DNA of 37,135 bases from Bacteroidaceae bacterium (GTDB lineage Bacteria; Bacteroidota; Bacteroidia; Bacteroidales; Bacteroidaceae), in assembly GCA_017958545.1 (NCBI GenBank), contig JAGDCM010000025.1, forward strand, positions 1 to 37,135, read 5' to 3'. The notes beneath the pieces are model-generated. The model did no database searches and was not told where the DNA came from. It saw only the letters and a list, made by a program, of their open reading frames with translations. A program made the position numbers and the translations under genes. This document shows, in pieces, positions 13,586-37,135 of the stretch; position 1 is the stretch's first letter; each line of letters opens with the position of its first letter.

Positions 13586-13647
13586 CGCCCGTAAACGTGT
13601 AGGTGAGAAGCTCTTGAGTGGGTTTCTCGCTTTGTTTTATAGAGATT

Positions 13648-14115
13648 ATGATAGATAAGAAACAAGTGGAGGAAGCCGTCAATGAATGGCTGAAAGAGAA
13701 AGAGTACTTTCTCGTGGAGTTGAGTGTGGAGGCGGACGATCGCATCGTGGTGGTGATAGACCACAAGGACGGTGTGTGGATTGACGACTGTGCGGACCTG
13801 TCGCGCTATATCGAGTCGAAGCTCGACCGCGACGACGAGGACTACGAACTGGAAGTGGGCAGCGCCGGTCTGGGGCAGCCGTTCAAGGTGGCTCAGCAAT
13901 GGGAGAACCATGTGGGCAAGACGGTGGAGACCTTTGCCCGCGACGGACATAAGTATCAAGGCACGCTGACGGAGGTGACTCCCGAGGGATTCACGCTGCT
14001 CTGTCAAGAGAAAGTGAAGGAAGAGGGCAGGAAGCGCCCCGTGCAGAAGGAGGTGGAGCACAAGTTCGGATACGACGATGTGACCATCACCCGCTACGTT
14101 CTGAAAATAAAATAA
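13648..14115 (+). CDS. rimP: Ribosome maturation factor RimP
   Basis: It assists late assembly of the 30S subunit. The 155-residue protein matches the family: an N-terminal alpha/beta domain with VEEAVNEWLKEKEYFLVELSV, the DDCADLSRYIESKLD and YELEVGSAGLGQPFK motif of RimP, and a C-terminal SH3-like domain. I chose ATG 13648 (MIDKKQ) rather than the longer frame from 13618, which runs through the leader hairpin. It comes directly before nusA and infB, the widespread rimP-nusA-infB order. Confidence 0.93.
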   Translation: MIDKKQVEEAVNEWLKEKEYFLVELSVEADDRIVVVIDHKDGVWIDDCADLSRYIESKLDRDDEDYELEVGSAGLGQPFKVAQQWENHVGKTVETFARDGHKYQGTLTEVTPEGFTLLCQEKVKEEGRKRPVQKEVEHKFGYDDVTITRYVLKIK

Positions 14116-14127
14116 AACAAAATATCT

Positions 14128-15420
14128 ATGGCAACCAAGACAGCTAAGAAAGACGAAAAGACGGTGAACCTCATTGAGTCGTTCGCTGAGTTCAAGGAGA
14201 TGAAAAACATCGACCGCACCACACTGGTGGGTGTGCTCGAGGAGTGCTTCCGCAGCGTCATCGTGAAGATGTACGGCAGCGACGAGAATTACGACATCAT
14301 CGTAAACCCCGACAAGGGAGACTTCGAAATCTATCGCAACCGCACCGTGGTGGAAGACGGTAAGGTGAAGGACGACAACATGGAGATTTCCCTCTCGTAG
14401 GCTCAGAAAATCGACCCCGATTACGAAGTGGGCGAGGAGGTGAGCCAGAAGGTGGAGTTCAGTGATTTCGGTCGCCGCGCCATCCTGACATTGCGTCAGA
14501 CGCTGGCTTCGCGCATCCTCGACCTGGAGCATGACACGCTCTACAATGCCTATAAGGACCGTGTGGGCGAGGTGATTTCCGGTGAGGTGTACCAGAGCTG
14601 GAAGCGCGAGACGCTGGTGATTGACGACGACAACACGGAGCTCATCCTGCCCAAGACGGAGCAGGTGCCCGGTGACTTCTTCCGCAAGGGAGAGACCTTG
14701 CGCGCAGTGATACAGCGTGTGGACAACGCCAACGGAAATCCCAAGATTTACATCTCGCGCACCGACCCAATGTTCCTGCAGAAGATGATGGAGAACGAGG
14801 TACCCGAGATTCAGGACGGACTCATCACCATCCACAAGGTGGCACGCATCCCCGGCGAGCGCGCCAAGGTGGCTGTGGAGAGCTACGACGAGCGTATCGA
14901 TCCGGTGGGAGCCTGCGTAGGTGTGAAGGGTAGTCGTGTGCACGGTATTGTGCGCGAACTGCACGGTGAGAATATCGATGTGCTGCCCTGGAGTGCCAAC
15001 GATCAGATAATGATTGCACGTGCCCTGTCGCCCGCCCGTGTCAACACGGTGAACCTCGACACAGAGTCGAAGACGGCAGAGGTGTATCTCGACCCCGATC
15101 AGGTGTCGCTGGCAATCGGTAAGGGCGGTGCCAACATCAAACTGGCATCAATGCTCTGCGGCTATACCATAGACGTATACCGCGATGTGCAGGAAGGCGA
15201 GACGATGGAGGAGGACGATGTGGCTCTGGATGAATTCGCAGACGCCATCGACCCCTGGATTATCGAGGAACTCAAGAAGAACGGACTCACAACAGCGCGT
15301 CAGGTGCTCGGCACATCACGCGACTTCCTCGTAAAGACTATCGATCTGGAGGAAGAGACGGTGGACGACATAATGAAAGTGCTGGCATCAGAATTTGAAG
15401 AGGAGGAGAGTGCAGAATGA
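14128..15420 (+). pseudogene. nusA: Transcription factor NusA, interrupted by an in-frame TAG at codon 91
   Basis: NusA binds RNA polymerase and nascent RNA and controls pausing, termination and antitermination. The reading frame is intact from ATG 14128 to TGA 15418-15420 except for TAG at 14398-14400. Residues 1-90 are most of the N-terminal polymerase-binding domain (NIDRTTLVGVLEECFRSVIVKMYGSDENYDIIVNPDKGDFEIYRNR). After the stop the same frame continues with AQKIDPDYEVGEEV, then the S1, KH1 and KH2 domains (DPVGACVGVKGSRVHGIVREL; EVYLDPDQVSLAIGKGGANIKLA) and an acidic C terminus. Relatives have glutamate here (SLSEAQKID-like), so GAG to TAG explains it. A GTG at 14428 could restart the second part. 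The stop overlaps the infB start. The gene is normally essential, so error, suppression or split function must be considered. Confidence 0.9.
14398..14400 (+). other. nusA: In-frame amber codon in nusA
   Basis: TCG-TAG-GCT lies where the NusA family has Ser/Thr-Glu-Ala. One base (G to T at 14398) restores a full-length protein. No frameshift is needed. Confidence 0.9.
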
Positions 15421-18245
15421 GTATAAGACTGAATAAAGCCATCAAGGAATGCAACGTAGGGTTGCAGACCGCTGTGGAGTTTCTTCGCAAGAAAGGCTAC
15501 ACGGACGTTGAGGAGAGTCTCAACGCCAAAATAAGCGATGAGCAGTTTGACGAACTGCAGAAGGAATTCAAACCGGACAGCGTGCTGAAGAATCAGGCAA
15601 ATATGATGCTTCAGCAACAGAAGGAGGCACGTGCCGCCAAGGAGCAGGCTCGTGAAGAGGCCCGTGCTGCCAAGGCCGCAGAGAAAGAGGCCGCTGCCGC
15701 AGAAGCTGCAGCAAAAGCCGCTGCGGAGAGGGAGGCCAAGAAACCTGTATTCAAGGTGTTGGGCAAAATCGACTTGGATAAAAAGCCGAAGCCCGCTCCT
15801 GTTCCCGAACCGGAACCCGCTCCGACGCCAGAACCGGAACCTGTTTCTGTTCCGGAACCAACTCCAGTTCCTGAACCCGAACCGGAGCCCGCTCCCGTGA
15901 AGGAGGAAGTTCCCGTTGTGGAGGAGAAGGAAGAAGAGGCAGAGCCGGTGAAGAAGCCCCATACGGTGAGCAACAAGGAGGTGACACTGACGGAGGAGAA
16001 CGGTATCTTCAAGGTGCAGACTTCTGCTCAACAGCCTCAAGGACTCACAGTTATGGGTCATATCGACCTCTCTGCCATCAACCAGAGCACACGTCCCAAG
16101 AAGAAGACCAAGGAGGAGAAGAACAGGGAACGCAAAGCCGCAGCAGAGGCTCAGGCTCAGCAGAGGAAGCGCGCCCGTATCGGCAAGGGCCCTGTGGATG
16201 TTGACGCTTTGGCTAAGGACATACGTACCCAGCCGGGCAAGAAGAACAACAATAACGGTCAGCAGAACCAGCAGAACCAGCAGGGCGGCAAGAACAACAA
16301 GAAAGGCAAGAAACACCAGCCCCAGATCGCAGAGGTTTCCGAAGAGGAGGTAGCAAAGCAGGTGCGCGAGACGCTGGCACGCCTCACCACCGGTAAGAAC
16401 CAGCAGTTCGGTTCCGGCGCAAAGCACCGCCGCGAGAAGCGCGAAGCTGTGCGTCAGGGTCTCGAGGAGGAGATGGAACAGCAGCAGGCAGAGAGCAAGG
16501 TGCTCAAGCTCACCGAGTTTGTGACCGCCAACGAGCTCGCTACCATGATGAATGTGCCCGTCACCAAGATTATCGCCACATGTATGCAGATTGGTGTGAT
16601 GGTGAGCATCAACCAGCGCATGGATGCTGAGACAATCAACCTCGTGGCTGAGGAATTCGGATATGAGACACAATACGTTTCTGCAGAAGTGTCGGAGGCT
16701 ATCGTGGAGGCCGAGGATGACGAGGCAGATTTGCTGCCGCGCGCTCCGATTGTCACCGTGATGGGTCATGTCGACCACGGTAAGACATCGCTGCTCGACT
16801 ACATACGTCAGACGAACGTCATCGCCGGTGAGGCAGGCGGTATCACGCAGCACATCGGTGCCTACAACGTGGCTCTCGAGGACGGACGTCATGTCACATT
16901 CCTCGACACTCCCGGTCATGAGGCGTTCACCGCCATGCGTGCCCGTGGTGCTCAGGTGACGGATATTGCCATCATCATTGTGGCTGCCGACGACGACATC
17001 ATGCCGCAGACCAAGGAGGCTCTCGCACATGCAACGGCAGCCGGCGTCCCCATTGTATTCGCCATCAACAAGATAGATAAACCCACAGCAAATCCCGACA
17101 AGATAAAGGAGGGACTCGCCGCTATGAACTTCCTCGTGGAGGATTGGGGCGGCAAGTACCAAAGTCAGGATATCAGTGCCAAGAAGGGTACTGGTGTGAA
17201 GGAACTCCTGGAGAAGGTGCTCCTCGAGGCCGAGATGCTCGACCTCAAGGCAAATCCCAACCGCAAGGCGACGGGTTCCATCATCGAGTCGTCGCTGGAC
17301 AAAGGCCGCGGCTATGTTGCCACGGTGCTCGTGTCGAACGGCACGCTGCACGTCGGTGATATGATGCTTGCTGGCACCAGCTACGGACGCGTGAAGGCCA
17401 TGCTCGACGAGCGCGGTAAGCGTATCCAAGCCATCGGCCCCGCACAGGCAGCCACGATACTCGGTTTGAACGGCGCTCCCACGGCAGGTGACACCTTCCA
17501 CGTGATGGACACCGACCAAGAGGCCCGCGAGATAGCCACGAAGCGTGAGCAGCTGGCCCGCGAACAGGGTCTGCGCACAATGAAGCGCAAGGGTCTGGAG
17601 GAACTGGCACACAATATCGCGCTGGGCGACTATCATGAACTGAACCTCATCGTCAAGGGCGATGTGGACGGTTCCATCGAGGCTTTGTCCGATTCGCTGC
17701 TCAAACTCTCTACGGAGAAGATTCAGGTCAACGTCATCCACAAGGCCGTGGGTCAGATATCGGAGAGCGATGTCACTCTAGCCGCTGCTTCCGATGCCAT
17801 CATCGTTGCGTTCCAGGTGCGTCCCTCGTCGCAGGCGCGCAAACTGGCCGAGCAGGAGGGTGTGGACATCCGCACATACTCCGTCATCTACGATGCCATC
17901 GAGGAGGTGAGAGAGGCCATGGAGGGTATGCTTTCGCCCGAGATACGCGAGGAGGTTACGGCACAGGTGGAAGTGCGCCAGGTGTACCATATCTCCAAGG
18001 TGGGCACTGTGGCCGGTGCATATGTTGTCGAGGGTAAGGTGAGCCGCACCAACAAGGCCCGCGTCATTCGCGACGGTATTGTGGTATTCACCGGTGAAAT
18101 CAATGCTCTCAAGCGTTTCAAGGATGATGTGAAGGAGGTTTCCACCAACTTCGAGTGCGGTCTGTCGCTGGTGAACTACAACGACCTGCGCGAGGGCGAC
18201 ATGATAGAGACGTTCGCAGAGGTAGAGGTGAAGGCAAAACTGTAA
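15417..18245 (+). CDS. infB: Translation initiation factor IF-2
   Basis: This GTPase places initiator tRNA on the ribosome. The 942-residue protein has an N-terminal IF2_N-like helix ([27 protein letters not shown]), a long alanine/lysine/glutamate-rich and proline-glutamate-rich linker (PEPEPAP-type repeats near 15800-15900), a second IF2_N-like segment ([18 protein letters not shown]), and then the G domain. P-loop GHVDHGKT starts at residue 450, followed by DTPGHEAF and NKIDK. The two C-terminal domains are present. It starts within the nusA stop (ATGA overlap), so it is coupled to nusA. A codon-bias artefact gives a long open frame on the opposite strand. Confidence 0.97.
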
Positions 18246-30342: not shown

Positions 30343-31632
30343 TTAGTTGGCGATATTGTATACGGTTTCTACTGACGGGTGGTATGCCTGTTCCTTGTTG
30401 AGCGGCATGCGCGACAGTGTCAACGGATTGCGGAAAAAGGCGAAGAGTTTTTTGTCTTCCGGGTGTGCTCTTTGTTCAAGCACTTCTATCATTTCCTTTC
30501 CGTCGTCGCTGTAGTTCCAAAGGCATCGCAGCGCTTCGTAGCGCACATGCGGATTGCGGTTGTAACGGTAGGTGTCCACGATGACGCGCTGGTTTTTGCC
30601 GGTATCCATGCGTGTTATGGCGTGCAGGATTGCTACCTTCGTGTCGTCGGGCTGTGTGAGCAGGGCTTCCACCAGCAGTTGCTCTCCCTCTGTGTAGCTG
30701 AGATAGCCCCATGTGCGTGCTATCTCCTCAATGAGTTTCTTGTGTTTGCTCTCGCGAAACATCGGTTCCAGCTGCGCACAGTATTCACGCTGGTCGAAGC
30801 GTCGCATCAGTCTCACGAACATGCATTTTGTGTAGTCCTTCTTCTGCAGTTCCGCCCAGTGGGCCAGATTGGGCAGTTTCATTCCCGCATTGCGTCGGCG
30901 GTTGAGGATGTAGCCCAGTTCGATTTCATCATAGATGCACGAGTTCTTGTCGAAGAAGTCAGTCTCGAAGTATGCAAGTTCGCTGTCCGAACTCGACATC
31001 ACCGACATATACATTGCCACGCGGCGCAGACGTACTTTGGGAGAAGTCATCAGTCGGTTCAGCAGCCAGGGGTTCATATACAGCTTGAAGGCTCTTGCCT
31101 GGGTCATTGCTTTCATTTTGCGCCAAGTGCTGCCTCGGGTGATTTCCTTCTCCAAAAAGTTTTGCAGGCCGAGCACGTTGAGGAAAAGTTGCAAGTTTTT
31201 CGTACGGCTGGGTCCGGCCACCTCGTCTCGCATTAGTCGTTCGTAGGCCATGCGGCACACCATACGGCGCTGTTCGTCGTTGCGCAGATAGCCGTATTTT
31301 GCCAACCTTTCCGGGTCGATGTCTATGGCATTCTTGATATCCTCGCGGGACATTGGGTTGTAGACATCGCATGCAAAAATGCTGTCAAGCAGTCTGCCGA
31401 AACGCCCCTCCAGTTTCTTCCTCAGTTCGTCGCGCTTGGTACGCTTATATCCGATGTGCTCCAAACGGACAAAGATGACGATGATTAGAAAAAGCGACCA
31501 AAGGATTACCCATATCGCGGTTTTTACCTCGTAAGGGTAGTCTCGGAAAAGATCCCTGTAGTACGTCCAGAAATATGTGACGTACGTTGTTATCAGGTTG
31601 TAGTAATATGACAATGCCGAGACGCTATCCAC
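30343..31632 (-). CDS. Membrane-anchored HEAT-like repeat protein
   Basis: A 429-residue protein with one membrane helix at about 38-56 (KTAIWVILWSLFLIIVIFV), followed by a basic stretch and an all-helical cytoplasmic region. Helical pairs in the second half look like HEAT or PBS-lyase-type repeats (LIEEIARTWGYLSYTEGEQLLVEALLTQPDDTKVAILHAITRMDTGKNQRVIVDTYRYNRNPHVRYEALRCLWNYS). I recognise no enzymatic motif. It is the first gene of the operon and just precedes the synthase, where it may be a scaffold or regulator of polymer synthesis; that is inference. The start ATG follows the putative promoter. Confidence 0.75.
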   Translation of the reverse strand: MDSVSALSYYYNLITTYVTYFWTYYRDLFRDYPYEVKTAIWVILWSLFLIIVIFVRLEHIGYKRTKRDELRKKLEGRFGRLLDSIFACDVYNPMSREDIKNAIDIDPERLAKYGYLRNDEQRRMVCRMAYERLMRDEVAGPSRTKNLQLFLNVLGLQNFLEKEITRGSTWRKMKAMTQARAFKLYMNPWLLNRLMTSPKVRLRRVAMYMSVMSSSDSELAYFETDFFDKNSCIYDEIELGYILNRRRNAGMKLPNLAHWAELQKKDYTKCMFVRLMRRFDQREYCAQLEPMFRESKHKKLIEEIARTWGYLSYTEGEQLLVEALLTQPDDTKVAILHAITRMDTGKNQRVIVDTYRYNRNPHVRYEALRCLWNYSDDGKEMIEVLEQRAHPEDKKLFAFFRNPLTLSRMPLNKEQAYHPSVETVYNIAN

Positions 31633-31688
31633 AGGTGTTTCTCGTAAGTGATATTAGATTTAACGTAAATTTTTAACACACTTGAGGG

Positions 31689-31720
31689 CAAAGATACAGA
31701 AATTATTGCAAATAATGCAA
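31689..31720 (-). promoter_or_regulatory. Putative promoter of the polysaccharide operon
   Basis: TATCTTTG on the minus strand (31689-31696), 56 bases before the HEAT-like gene, with a TTG 21 bases upstream (718-720) as a possible -33 element. Confidence 0.5.
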
Positions 31721-31722
31721 TA

Positions 31723-31740
31723 TCTCTCGCTGACGAGAGA
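31723..31740 (-). terminator. Hairpin after the transporter gene, weak terminator candidate
   Basis: TCTCTCG and CGAGAGA form a 7-bp stem with a 4-base loop. It is preceded, not followed, by a T-rich run on the minus strand, so terminator activity is uncertain. It separates the transporter gene from the polysaccharide operon. Confidence 0.35.
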
Positions 31741-31771
31741 GAAAAATGGTCAAAAAGTCAAAAAAAAGTAC

Positions 31772-33304
31772 TTAAACGCCCATAACAGCCCTTACTAAGA
31801 GCATTACGATGGGTATTGTGACAAGCAGAATGCCGATGGCATCGATGATGACTCCGGACTTTATCATCTTCGTGATGGGTACATAGCCCGAAGCATAGAC
31901 AATGGCATTGGGCGGCGTAGATACCGGCATCATGAATCCGAGCGATGACGACAGAGCAATGCCGATAGCCACCGGAATAGGGCTGAAGCCTACAGAAATT
32001 GCCGTACTGATAGCGATGGGAGCTATGAGATTTGTGGATGCCGTGTGCGATGTCAGTTCAGAGAGTAGCAGGGCAACGGTGCAGAACACTCCCACGAAGA
32101 CCCATTCCGACGGGTTGCTGCCCATCACGTCCCGGATACCGTTGCCTACCCAGTTGGTGAGTCCCGTGGTATACATCATTGCACCCATCGACAAACCGCC
32201 TCCGAAAAGCAGAAGAGTACCCCAGTCCACACCGGCCACACCGTCCTTCCAGTTCATTGTCGGCTTCCATGTCTTGGTGTCGGCAGGCAGAAGGAACAGC
32301 AGCAAAGCACCTATCATACCACCGATGGCTTCGGGGAAATGGCTGTCGTAGAACTTCATCACGTCGGAGTCCTGACGGTATATGAGCATAATCACACTTG
32401 GAGCCACCCACAACGCTACAGCTACACAGAAGGCTATGACGGTGTTCTTCTGCGCCCTCGTCCATTTTCCCAGTGAATTGCGGCATTCGCGGATGAAGTT
32501 TTGTGCCCCTTCAATGTGGTTGACATCGGCGGGGAACATCCACCAAAGAACAACGCTGGCGAGTATGAAGTAAATTATCATTGCCACAATGCCCCATGTC
32601 ATCCATTGGAAGAAGGAAACGACGGGAGCATTGGGAGCAAGTTGAGTGAGGAATCCCAGCATGATGATGTTGGGAGGTGTACCGATGGGTGTCATCACGC
32701 CGCCGATAGAGCAGGCGTATGCCGTCATAAGCATCAGTCCTGTTGCGTATTTGTAGTTCGACAGGTCGATGATTTTACCGTTGGCGGCCATCATGTCCCG
32801 TATGGTTTGCAGCAGTCCCAGCGAGATGGGAAACATCATTGCAGCAGTCGCCGTGTTGCTAATCCATCCGGAGCACAGCATACAGGCAATACCGATGGCA
32901 AGAAATATGTGTCTGGGTGAGTCTCCCACCCATTTCATAGACATAATTCCGTATGCGATGCGTTTGTCCAGACCGTTCACCATCATACCTTTTGCCAACA
33001 TGAAGCCACCCAGGAAAAGGAATATCATGGGGTTGGCGAAGTCCTTGAATGCATCTTCCACCGGAGCGATACCTGTTGCAACGCACAACGTTGGACCCAT
33101 CAGCGAAGTGACGGGAATGGGCACGGGTTCTGTCACCCACCATATTGCCACCAGCGTCATCACCGCCAGCAGGTGGTGTGCGGCATCCGACAGGGATTCA
33201 ATGGGGGTGAACCAGATTATGATGGCGGCGAGAGGACCGATAACGGTTCCTATTGTTTTACGGAGTTCTCTGGTTGGGCGTTCTGCGATAATTGTGTTTT
33301 CCAT
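31772..33304 (-). CDS. DASS-family (SLC13-type) anion/sodium symporter
   Basis: A 510-residue integral membrane transporter with about 11-12 hydrophobic segments. It carries the two family signatures around the paired binding loops: GWISNTATAAMM with GTPPN, and ELTSHTASTNL with STPPNAIVYASGYV. Members move dicarboxylates such as succinate, malate or fumarate, or sulfate, with sodium; the substrate here is not settled, but a dicarboxylate is plausible for a fermenting Bacteroidota. It starts 17 bases after the YifB stop, as the last gene of the rpsO-typA-yifB run. Confidence 0.92.
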   Translation of the reverse strand: MENTIIAERPTRELRKTIGTVIGPLAAIIIWFTPIESLSDAAHHLLAVMTLVAIWWVTEPVPIPVTSLMGPTLCVATGIAPVEDAFKDFANPMIFLFLGGFMLAKGMMVNGLDKRIAYGIMSMKWVGDSPRHIFLAIGIACMLCSGWISNTATAAMMFPISLGLLQTIRDMMAANGKIIDLSNYKYATGLMLMTAYACSIGGVMTPIGTPPNIIMLGFLTQLAPNAPVVSFFQWMTWGIVAMIIYFILASVVLWWMFPADVNHIEGAQNFIRECRNSLGKWTRAQKNTVIAFCVAVALWVAPSVIMLIYRQDSDVMKFYDSHFPEAIGGMIGALLLFLLPADTKTWKPTMNWKDGVAGVDWGTLLLFGGGLSMGAMMYTTGLTNWVGNGIRDVMGSNPSEWVFVGVFCTVALLLSELTSHTASTNLIAPIAISTAISVGFSPIPVAIGIALSSSLGFMMPVSTPPNAIVYASGYVPITKMIKSGVIIDAIGILLVTIPIVMLLVRAVMGV

Positions 33305-33321
33305 ATTGTTTTCTGTTATTT

Positions 33322-34869
33322 TTAGATTCCTCTCTCTGCCCAGTCGCCTCGGTCTAGATTGCGGTAGCCGATGGCTTCGGCAATATGCTGTGACAGCACC
33401 TTCTCAGAGCCTTCAAGGTCGGCAATGGTGCGGGCCACTTTAAGAATGCGCGTGTAGGCGCGGGCTGAGAGTTTGAGACGTTCCATCGCCATTCGGAGCA
33501 TTTCGAGCGACTGGGCATCGGGTTCTGCAAAGATGTGGAGCATCTTCTCCGTCATCTGAGCATTGCAATGTATCCCCTTGCAGTCCTTGAAACGCTCTGC
33601 CTGAATCTGGCGGGCAGCGATAACACGCTGACGAATCACACTACTGGGTTCGCCCGGCTCCATCTGTGAGAGTTGTGCGAAGGGTACAGCTTGAATCTCG
33701 CAATGAATATCAATGCGGTCGAGCAGCGGACCGCTGATTTTGGACAGATAGCGGCTGATCTGGCCTGGTGTGCAGGTGCAACGGTGGTGCGGGTCGCCGA
33801 AATAACCGCAAGGACACGGATTCATTGAGGCAACGAACATGAAGTTGCAGGGATATTCAACAGAATACTTCGCACGGGACACATTGATGGTGCGATCTTC
33901 CAGAGGCTGACGGAGCACTTCAAGTGTCTGGCGCTGGAATTCAGGTAATTCATCGCAAAAAAGAACCCCGTTGTGTGCCAGAGAAATCTCTCCCGGTGTG
34001 GCATTGGTGCCACCGCCAACAAGAGCCACTTGAGATATTGTGTGATGCGGTGAACGGAATGGACGCGAAGCAATAAGTGCGGAGTCCTTGTTCAGTTTGC
34101 CGGCGACGGAATGTATCTGTGTGGTCTCAAGACTTTCGGATAGGGTGAGAGGCGGCAGAATGGACGGCAGTCGCTTTGCCATCATACTTTTTCCGCTGCC
34201 GGGAGGTCCCACCATGATGAGATTGTGTCCGCCAGCTGCCGCAACTTCCAAGGCGCGCTTCACGAGTGCTTGCCCCTTGACATCCGCCATGTCGTATTCC
34301 ACATCCGACTGATGGTCGAAGAACTCTTTGCGGGTGTCCATCTCATAGGGCGTGAGAGGCTCTTTGCCGTTGAGGAAGTTCACCACCTGCGAGATATGGC
34401 TTACACCATACACCTTGATGCGATTGACGACAGCTGCCTCGCGTACGTTTTGAATAGGTACGAAAAGATTCTCGTAACCGAGTTCGCGTGCCTTAATAGC
34501 TATGGGTAGTACACCTTTAACCGGTTGAATACCTCCGTCCAGAGAAAGCTCACCCACCATCATTGTCTGTTCGAGGAGAGTGGTCTCCACCTGTTTCTCC
34601 GCAGCCATAATGCCGATGGCTATGGGGAGGTCGTACCCACTGCCTTCTTTGCGGATATCGGCGGGAGCGAGGTTGATGGTAATCTGCTTTGCTGGGAACT
34701 TATATCCGCTGTTCTCTACGGCAGCGACAATGCGCTCGTGACTTTCCTTGACGGCGTTGTCGGGCAGTCCGACCATGCAGAAACGTATGCCGCGAGCAAG
34801 GTTCACCTCGATGGTGACCTGTTGGGCATTGAGTCCCTGAACGCTGGCAGAGAAGGTCTTGACGAGCAT
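33322..34869 (-). CDS. YifB/ComM family Mg-chelatase-like AAA ATPase
   Basis: A 515-residue AAA+ protein. The N-terminal ChlI-like domain starts MLVKTFSASVQGLNAQQVTIEVNLARGIRFCMVGLPDNAVKES. The ATPase core has Walker A GPPGSGKSMMAKR, Walker B GVLFCDELPEF and the family NPCPCGYFGDP. Its C terminus is the Mg-chelatase-like lid. In naturally competent bacteria ComM is a helicase that helps integrate incoming DNA by branch migration; the Bacteroidota version has no tested role that I know of. It starts 3 bases after typA, so the two are probably co-transcribed. Confidence 0.93.
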   Translation of the reverse strand: MLVKTFSASVQGLNAQQVTIEVNLARGIRFCMVGLPDNAVKESHERIVAAVENSGYKFPAKQITINLAPADIRKEGSGYDLPIAIGIMAAEKQVETTLLEQTMMVGELSLDGGIQPVKGVLPIAIKARELGYENLFVPIQNVREAAVVNRIKVYGVSHISQVVNFLNGKEPLTPYEMDTRKEFFDHQSDVEYDMADVKGQALVKRALEVAAAGGHNLIMVGPPGSGKSMMAKRLPSILPPLTLSESLETTQIHSVAGKLNKDSALIASRPFRSPHHTISQVALVGGGTNATPGEISLAHNGVLFCDELPEFQRQTLEVLRQPLEDRTINVSRAKYSVEYPCNFMFVASMNPCPCGYFGDPHHRCTCTPGQISRYLSKISGPLLDRIDIHCEIQAVPFAQLSQMEPGEPSSVIRQRVIAARQIQAERFKDCKGIHCNAQMTEKMLHIFAEPDAQSLEMLRMAMERLKLSARAYTRILKVARTIADLEGSEKVLSQHIAEAIGYRNLDRGDWAERGI

Positions 34870-34872
34870 CTG

Positions 34873-36681
34873 TTATTCTTCCTTAGAGCGACCGGAACGT
34901 TTGCGCTCCAAGTGATCGAGAATGATTTTGCGCATGCGCATCGACTTGGGAGTGACCTCCACGTACTCGTCCTCCTTGATGTATTCCAAAGCCTCTTCCA
35001 GAGAGAATATGGTGGCGGGGATGATGCGAGCCTTCTCGTCGGAACCGGAAGCACGCATATTAGTGAGCTGCTTGGCCTTGGTGACATTTACCACGAGGTC
35101 GTTGTCGTGAACATGCTCTCCGACCACTTGACCGGCATATACCTGCTCCTGTGGTTCAATAAAGAAACGACCGCGGTCCTGCAGATTGTTGATGGAATAT
35201 GCGTAGGCGGTACCAGTCTCAAGAGCTATCATGGAACCGTTGGTGCGACGGAGTATGTCACCCTTGTAGGGTTGGTACTCCTTGAAGCGATGAGCCATGA
35301 TGGCTTCACCCTGTGAGGCAGTGAGTATGTTCGTGCGCAAACCGATGATCCCGCGGGATGGGATGAGGAATTCGATGTTCACACGGTCTCCCTGACTCTC
35401 CATGGATGTCATTTCACCCTTGCGGCGGGTGACCATGTCAATCATCTTGGAAGAGAACTCCTCTGGAACGTTGATGGTGAGTTCCTCAATGGGTTCGCAG
35501 CGTTCGCCGTCTATTTCCTTATATATAACTTGCGGCTGACCTACCTGCAATTCGTAGCCCTCGCGACGCATTGTCTCGATGAGTACGGAAAGATGCAGGA
35601 CACCGCGACCGGCCACCAACCAGCGGTCGGTGTAGCCTTCTACGAGAGAGACGCGCAGAGCGAGGTTCTTCTCCAACTCCTTGTCGAGTCGCTCATTGAT
35701 ATGGCGTGAGGTGCAGTATTTGCCCTCTTTGCCGAAGAAAGGAGAGTCGTTGATGGTGAAGAGCATCGACATGGTGGGTTCGTCGATGGAGATGGGAGGC
35801 AGAGCCTCTGGATTCTCGTAGTCGCACAGTGTGTCGCCTATCTCGAAATGCTCCAATCCCACGATGGCACATATGTCACCGGATGATACGGCATCTGTTT
35901 TCTGGCGACCCATACCGGTGAAGGTGTGCAGTTCCTTTATCTTGGTCTTCTCCATGGAACCGTCGCGATGGGCCACTGTGATGTTCATTCCCTCGCGCAG
36001 CGTGCCGCGATGCACACGACCCACGGCGATGCGACCGGTGTAGTTGCTGTAGTCGAGCGAGGTGATGAGCATCTGGGGCGTACCTTCCAGTACGGTGGGT
36101 GCGGGGATGTGCTCGAGGATGGTGTCGAGGAGATAGGTAATGTCGTTGGTAGGAGTTGACCAGTCGGCACCCATCCAGCCGTTCTTCGCGCTGCCGTAGA
36201 TGACAGGGAAGTCCAGCTGCTCCTCTGTGGCATCAAGGTCGCACATGAGGTCGAAAACCATCTCGTAGACCTCTTCGGGGCGGCAGTTGGGCTTGTCCAC
36301 CTTGTTGACAACTACAACAGGTTTCAAACCTATCTCAAGAGCCTTTTGCAGTACAAAACGTGTTTGGGGCATGGGGCCTTCGAAAGCATCTACCAGAAGC
36401 AGGCAACCGTCTGCCATATTCAGTACACGCTCCACCTCACCGCCGAAATCGGAGTGTCCCGGGGTGTCGATGATGTTAATCTTGGTGTCCTTGTACTGGA
36501 TGGAGACATTCTTCGAGAGAATGGTGATGCCGCGCTCGCGTTCCAGCTCGTTGTTGTCGAGCATGAGTTCGCCTGTCTGCTGATTGTCGCGGAAAAGGTT
36601 GCCGGCCATCAGCATCTTGTCCACAAGAGTGGTCTTGCCGTGGTCGACATGGGCAATGATAGCAATATTTCTTATATCCAT
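34873..36681 (-). CDS. typA: Ribosome-associated GTPase TypA/BipA
   Basis: A 602-residue translational GTPase that acts in ribosome assembly and stress adaptation. The G domain has HVDHGKTTL (P loop), a GITI switch, [11 protein letters not shown] and NKVDK. The EF-G-like domains follow, and the BipA-specific C terminus is present ([23 protein letters not shown]). Length is normal. A strong terminator lies between it and rpsO. Confidence 0.97.
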
Positions 36682-36693
36682 AGACTAACGGGA

Positions 36694-36731
36694 TGAAAAA
36701 GAAAACCCCCGTCTGAGAGGCGGGGGCTTTC
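36694..36731 (-). terminator. Terminator of rpsO
   Basis: On the minus strand a GC-rich stem (CCCCCG with CGGGGG) around a 9-base loop is followed by TTTTCTTTTT. It fills most of the 60 bases between rpsO and typA. Confidence 0.85.
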
Positions 36732-36741
36732 GGATGCTTCT

Positions 36742-37011
36742 TTACTTTCTCAGACCGAGGGCCTTGACAATGGCACGATAGCGGTTGATGTCGCGCTTCT
36801 TCAAATAGTTGAGGAGCGAACGACGCTTACCTACGAGACCGGTCAGAGCGCGCTCTGTGCTGTGGTCCTTACGGTTTTGCTTCATGTGCTCGGTGAGGTG
36901 GGAGATGCGATAGGTGAAAAGAGCAATCTGGCTCTCTGCGCTACCTGTGTCCTTAACTCCCTGACCGAATTTGCCAAAGATCTCTTCTTTTTTTGCTGAA
37001 TCCAAATACAT
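36742..37011 (-). CDS. rpsO: 30S ribosomal protein S15
   Basis: An 89-residue S15 that binds 16S rRNA and the S6/S18 site on the 30S platform. Diagnostic segments are DTGSAESQIALFTYRISHLTEHMK, KDHSTERALTGLVGKRRSLLNYLKK and RYRAIVKALGLRK. The 80-base leader could house S15 self-regulation, which is known in several bacteria, but I see no established motif. Its own terminator follows. Confidence 0.97.
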   Translation of the reverse strand: MYLDSAKKEEIFGKFGQGVKDTGSAESQIALFTYRISHLTEHMKQNRKDHSTERALTGLVGKRRSLLNYLKKRDINRYRAIVKALGLRK

Positions 37012-37092
37012 TGTTGTAATGGTTTAAAGTAAACTTGTTTGTTGAGCAGCTCCTCCGCACGCTTCACGGCACTGTACTCACAAATGCGGGTG

Positions 37093-37100
37093 CAAAGGTA
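37093..37100 (-). promoter_or_regulatory. -7 element (TACCTTTG) of rpsO
   Basis: TACCTTTG on the minus strand leaves an 80-nt leader before the rpsO ATG. The -33 side lies in a heptamer-like repeat at the window edge. Confidence 0.6.
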
Positions 37101-37110
37101 CGAAAAATAG

Positions 37111-37135
37111 TTGAGAGTTGGGAGTTTAGAGTTTA
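37111..37135. repeat. Heptamer-like tandem repeat at the window end
   Basis: Reading the minus strand: TAAACTC, TAAACTC, CCAACTC and TCAAC, all in a 7-bp period. It resembles the TAAACTG repeat at 8743-8775. It is cut by the window edge, so its extent is unknown. Confidence 0.6.

Follow-up and report, generated by a model that had tools for sequence, protein, structure and literature searches.

The nusA gene of the window (here the whole stretch of DNA analysed, 37,135 nucleotides) is broken at codon 91 by a single in-frame TAG. The explanation we consider most probable, at roughly three chances in four, is a wrong base in the draft-assembly consensus at position 14398, the organism itself carrying an ordinary and intact nusA. 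One miscalled base at this position would turn a conserved glutamate codon from GAG to TAG, and the actual gene in the organism would be intact between rimP and infB. Among the relatives compared, the stop was private to this genome and the gene downstream of it was under normal constraint, from which we infer that the base is wrong. On these comparisons, an assembly error or a very recent mutation would be the likeliest origin of the stop, ahead of a new biological mechanism, and a single wrong base is the cheapest reading.

Genome and related loci

The window is the entire contig C7 of the source genome (G000), an assembly of 1,903,888 bases (1.90 Mb) in 127 contigs that is 78.14% complete with 0.13% contamination. 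The closest genome searched was G030, with a nucleotide identity of 93% in nusA. When the window was compared with contig 55 of G030, positions 31558-33262 were 79% similar, below the 89-95% of the remaining aligned stretches. G030 also carried about 8 kb extra between the counterparts of 31558-33262 and 33321-37135. The nearest named relative was the Bacteroidaceae MAG Tb.RUG.95, in a search that may omit records very near the window, and MAGs of the RUG series, which we take to be rumen genomes, also supplied the next closest named loci.

Two sets of nusA loci, overlapping in their genomes, were used. The genus search covered 61 genomes, 53 of them with a match, and gave the window's own locus and 29 others, 28 of which were counted at codon 91 (in L032 the site was uncovered). 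The second set consisted of 77 loci from named genomes, the four closest being L033, L034, L096 and L035.

The nusA reading frame

The features of the region are as follows.

13618 to 14115, + strand: rimP ORF, upstream neighbour of nusA, without internal stop; putative start codon
14128 to 15420, + strand: nusA, the only copy found; a single frame broken at codon 91 alone
14128 to 14397, + strand: nusA codons 1-90, encoding the beginning of the N-terminal domain of NusA (positions 1-75 of the 119 in the profile)
14398 to 14400, + strand: in-frame TAG, GAG in the four closest relatives
14428 to 15420, + strand: ORF from the GTG at codon 101 to the end of nusA, with the remaining N-terminal domain, the middle part and the KH domains
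15417 to 18245, + strand: infB (IF-2), downstream neighbour, without internal stop; its first four bases overlap the end of nusA

The initial annotation had described the frame as intact apart from this TAG, and this is what was found: the frame starts at ATG 14128, ends at TGA 15418-15420 and is otherwise open. In a search that reads through one TAG, the gene gave a full-length match to TIGR01953 of 394.3 bits against a curated cut-off of 253.4. The ORF list splits it into one ORF of 90 codons and another of 330, and NusA models match both pieces. The second piece had been said to encode S1, KH1 and KH2. Among KH-type Pfam models, KH_5 alone was above its curated cut-off; KH_NusA_C fell slightly below (32.7 versus 34.2 bits), and the Pfam search gave no separate S1 match.

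A profile search of the genome found no second copy of nusA. One candidate (28 bits) was rejected because its best match was to ribosomal protein S1 models at 110 bits, a score far below the whole-protein cut-off for a query that was an 89-residue piece only.

Codon 91 in related genomes

The residue at codon 91 is normally glutamate, as had been proposed. Among the named-genome loci it was Glu in 55 of 77 (32 GAG and 23 GAA), Asp in 18, Lys in 2, Ala in 1 and Gln in 1, and among the 28 genus loci covering the site it was Glu in 18 and Asp in 10. The comparison with close relatives that had been recommended gave GAG in all four of the closest named loci. A stop common to the relatives was therefore rejected, as none was present at this codon in either set (0/77 and 0/28), and this privacy of the stop favours a wrong base. 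No match to the site, with either G or T, was found in the viral contigs scanned.

Stops were seen elsewhere in the alignment in three of the 77 loci (L043, L088 and L103). Two lie two columns before the alignment end, where the protein naturally terminates. A contig-end artefact probably explains the third, which is three columns from the alignment end at a contig end and follows a short stretch unlike the query.

The codons after the stop showed strong constraint. Compared with its nearest relative, L033, the window had 68 synonymous and 2 nonsynonymous differences in the 339 codons after the stop, and 10 synonymous and 4 nonsynonymous in the 90 codons before it. The corresponding counts after the stop were 82 and 5 for L034 (337 codons), 117 and 22 for L096 (339 codons) and 112 and 23 for L035 (339 codons). 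These patterns indicate that this part of nusA was kept under selection until very recently and do not support a long-standing loss; any inactivation of nusA would therefore be very recent. This absence of decay downstream also favours a wrong base at 14398.

Position of the stop and possible restart

The N-terminal domain of NusA binds RNA polymerase. In an intact relative (L004), the NusA_N model spans residues 14-135, and the PDB chain 2mt4 (124 residues), which we take to be the solved NusA N-terminal domain, aligns to residues 14-134. The stop at codon 91 therefore falls within this domain. The initial annotation had suggested, as one option, a NusA split into two parts, that is, two separately translated pieces working together. 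Both ORFs do match NusA models, but a break inside a domain makes such a division unlikely, and with no compared relative carrying a stop at codon 91 we regard it as scarcely tenable.

The second explanation in our ranking, after a wrong consensus base, is a real and very recent nonsense mutation which would cut NusA to 90 residues and be tolerated, or be carried by a short-lived lineage, perhaps with translation restarting at a GTG at codon 101, 105 or 109. We consider it unlikely, although the sequence as given does read TAG and, ten codons downstream, has GTG 14428-14430 (+) at codon 101 (Val), with no earlier in-frame ATG, GTG or TTG between the two. In the four closest relatives codon 101 is GAG or GAA, so that the GTG is private to G000 among them, and by our arithmetic there is a chance of about 7% that one of the three other private changes in nusA would lie in the ten codons following the stop. 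As a compensating start this private GTG is suggestive at most. Further in-frame GTG codons follow at 105, shared by all four closest relatives, and at 109, shared by three of them (L035 has GTC); farther off, Val at codon 101 is frequent (35/77 loci, with GTG in 16/77). The private GTG is therefore not clearly compensatory, and there is little behind the restart at 14428 that had been put forward. We regard this GTG as a small oddity that would be compatible with a second wrong base, an ordinary substitution or, least likely, a compensating start. The lack of decay in nusA and the location of the stop within the N-terminal domain also weigh against a recent nonsense allele.

The initial annotation had regarded loss of NusA as normally very harmful, which is fair as a general statement. 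It is not absolute, since a review (PMC3382729) states that NusA can be dispensed with in the reduced Escherichia coli strain MDS42, and this dispensability would be in favour of a real nonsense allele. A literature search for NusA together with nonsense and an internal stop codon found no paper. A natural lineage without full-length NusA, living on a C-terminal piece restarted at codon 101, would be highly improbable. A true case would show a lineage in nature doing without intact NusA, and could tell how far the N-terminal domain is required outside E. coli.

Stop codon usage and readthrough

Another explanation is readthrough, in which the TAG would be read as an amino acid by a suppressor tRNA or through natural leakiness. 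In its favour, the frame past the stop is conserved, and a suppressor tRNA may be missing from the assembly because the genome is incomplete and some tRNAs are absent: tRNA models gave 31 matches in G000, compared with 42 in G030 and 39 in G033. However, the suppressor tRNA with a CTA anticodon that had been suggested as a check was not among the 31 tRNAs identified by ARAGORN in the window and 21 other stretches of this 78% complete genome. Release factor 1 (prfA) is intact and scores 453.2 bits, above the cut-off of 423.25, and the 161 long ORFs of G000 end in TAA (78), TGA (54) or TAG (23), with 6 running off an end. TAG is thus a normal stop here, which agrees with the general point of the initial annotation. 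As the stop is also present in no compared relative, readthrough appears very improbable.

The same evidence leaves recoding of TAG unsupported: G000 neither avoids TAG nor has lost release factor 1. The earlier view that a recoded amber is unlikely is therefore upheld by prfA, stop usage and the tRNAs, though in a genome that is 78% complete. In G030 and G033 the release factor 1 search also gave another, weaker match, presumably release factor 2, that had no counterpart in G000; its absence is most likely due to genome incompleteness.

Chance, decay and assembly quality

A codon-usage scan of 370,062 bases of G000, made up of the window and 21 other stretches, considered every stop flanked on either side by 60 open codons. 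There were 619 stops of this kind; in 11 of them the codon usage of both flanks was coding-like, with the nusA TAG at the top of the ranking. The interrupted frame of nusA is more than chance. The remaining 10 candidates we interpret as junctions where adjoining genes meet in one frame, from translations in eight cases and, for the two in the window, from ORF coordinates: the rimP stop, which begins 15 bases before nusA, and position 34873, where two minus-strand ORFs meet. The nusA TAG is therefore the only clear internal-stop case by codon usage in the bases scanned, at a sensitivity of about half (when 6,390 interior codons of the 161 long ORFs were probed, 3,107 were flagged and about half were missed). 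Because the scan may miss other cases, the error rate is poorly bounded. At the same sensitivity, genome-wide decay was not seen in these 370,062 bases.

When the mechanical ORF list of the window was compared by eye with contig 55 of G030, no other interrupted gene was seen, the stops listed lying either in shadow frames or close to the ends of genes. The lack of another interrupted gene in this comparison, together with the lack of a second nusA, favours a wrong base.

Amino-acid changes private to G000, judged against at least three close relatives, could be counted in eight of nine window genes (one had two relatives). They affected 4 of 429 codons in nusA (9, 76, 91 and 101) and 18 of 3,147 codons in seven other genes, and private base changes in the window genes were mostly third-position transitions. 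Because private changes are not raised in the seven neighbouring genes, there is no sign in the sequence that the contig is generally bad. This counts against a wrong base and is in line with a real nonsense allele; as a control, the private changes do not favour a wrong base over a real substitution. The private GTG at codon 101 would be either a second wrong base or a real change.

As a rule of thumb, roughly one random substitution in 20 creates a stop. By our arithmetic, one or two stops in 370 kb need only some 1 error per 10,000 to 20,000 bases, and a low error rate would be enough to produce one wrong base such as that proposed at 14398.

A second interrupted nusA

An order-wide search for nusA covered 393 genomes, 378 of them with a match. 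Among the 150 matches listed (counted by hand), two had a stop inside nusA, those of G000 and G336. The TAG of G336 (L167, G336:C205:600-3800, locus position 2114) is at a different codon, in the stretch aligning to the C-terminal KH model, where the relative G255 reads GAG; by eye, the NusA of G336 and G255 otherwise look identical over the aligned part. The G336 genome has 830 contigs and 8% contamination. G000 and G336 belong to two families of the order and both are many-contig drafts. Isolated stops of this kind, each at its own codon, are better accounted for by errors or rare alleles than by a shared mechanism.

Comparison with known systems

Three explanations had been offered initially: a sequencing or assembly error, a real nonsense mutation rescued by suppression or restart, and a split NusA. 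The first is the best supported of them. Recoding is not supported in this 78% complete genome, a split is disfavoured and little speaks for the restart. What the case chiefly illustrates is that a single base of a draft genome may mimic the loss of a core gene.

The gene resembles bacterial NusA (TIGR01953) in its full-length match over the cut-off, in being the single such match in the genome and in having rimP and infB adjoining. It differs in that its frame does not run uninterrupted, with one in-frame TAG at codon 91.

Cooley and Wright (2024; PMC11017572) describe many internal-stop pseudogenes as assembly errors. The nusA case is similar to such spurious draft-assembly pseudogenes in having one internal stop, absent from relatives, in a gene that is otherwise constrained, within a fragmented draft genome. 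By codon usage, one clear internal stop was present in the 370,062 bases scanned at about half sensitivity. A difference from them is that private changes are not generally in excess in its contig, their number not being raised in the seven neighbouring genes.
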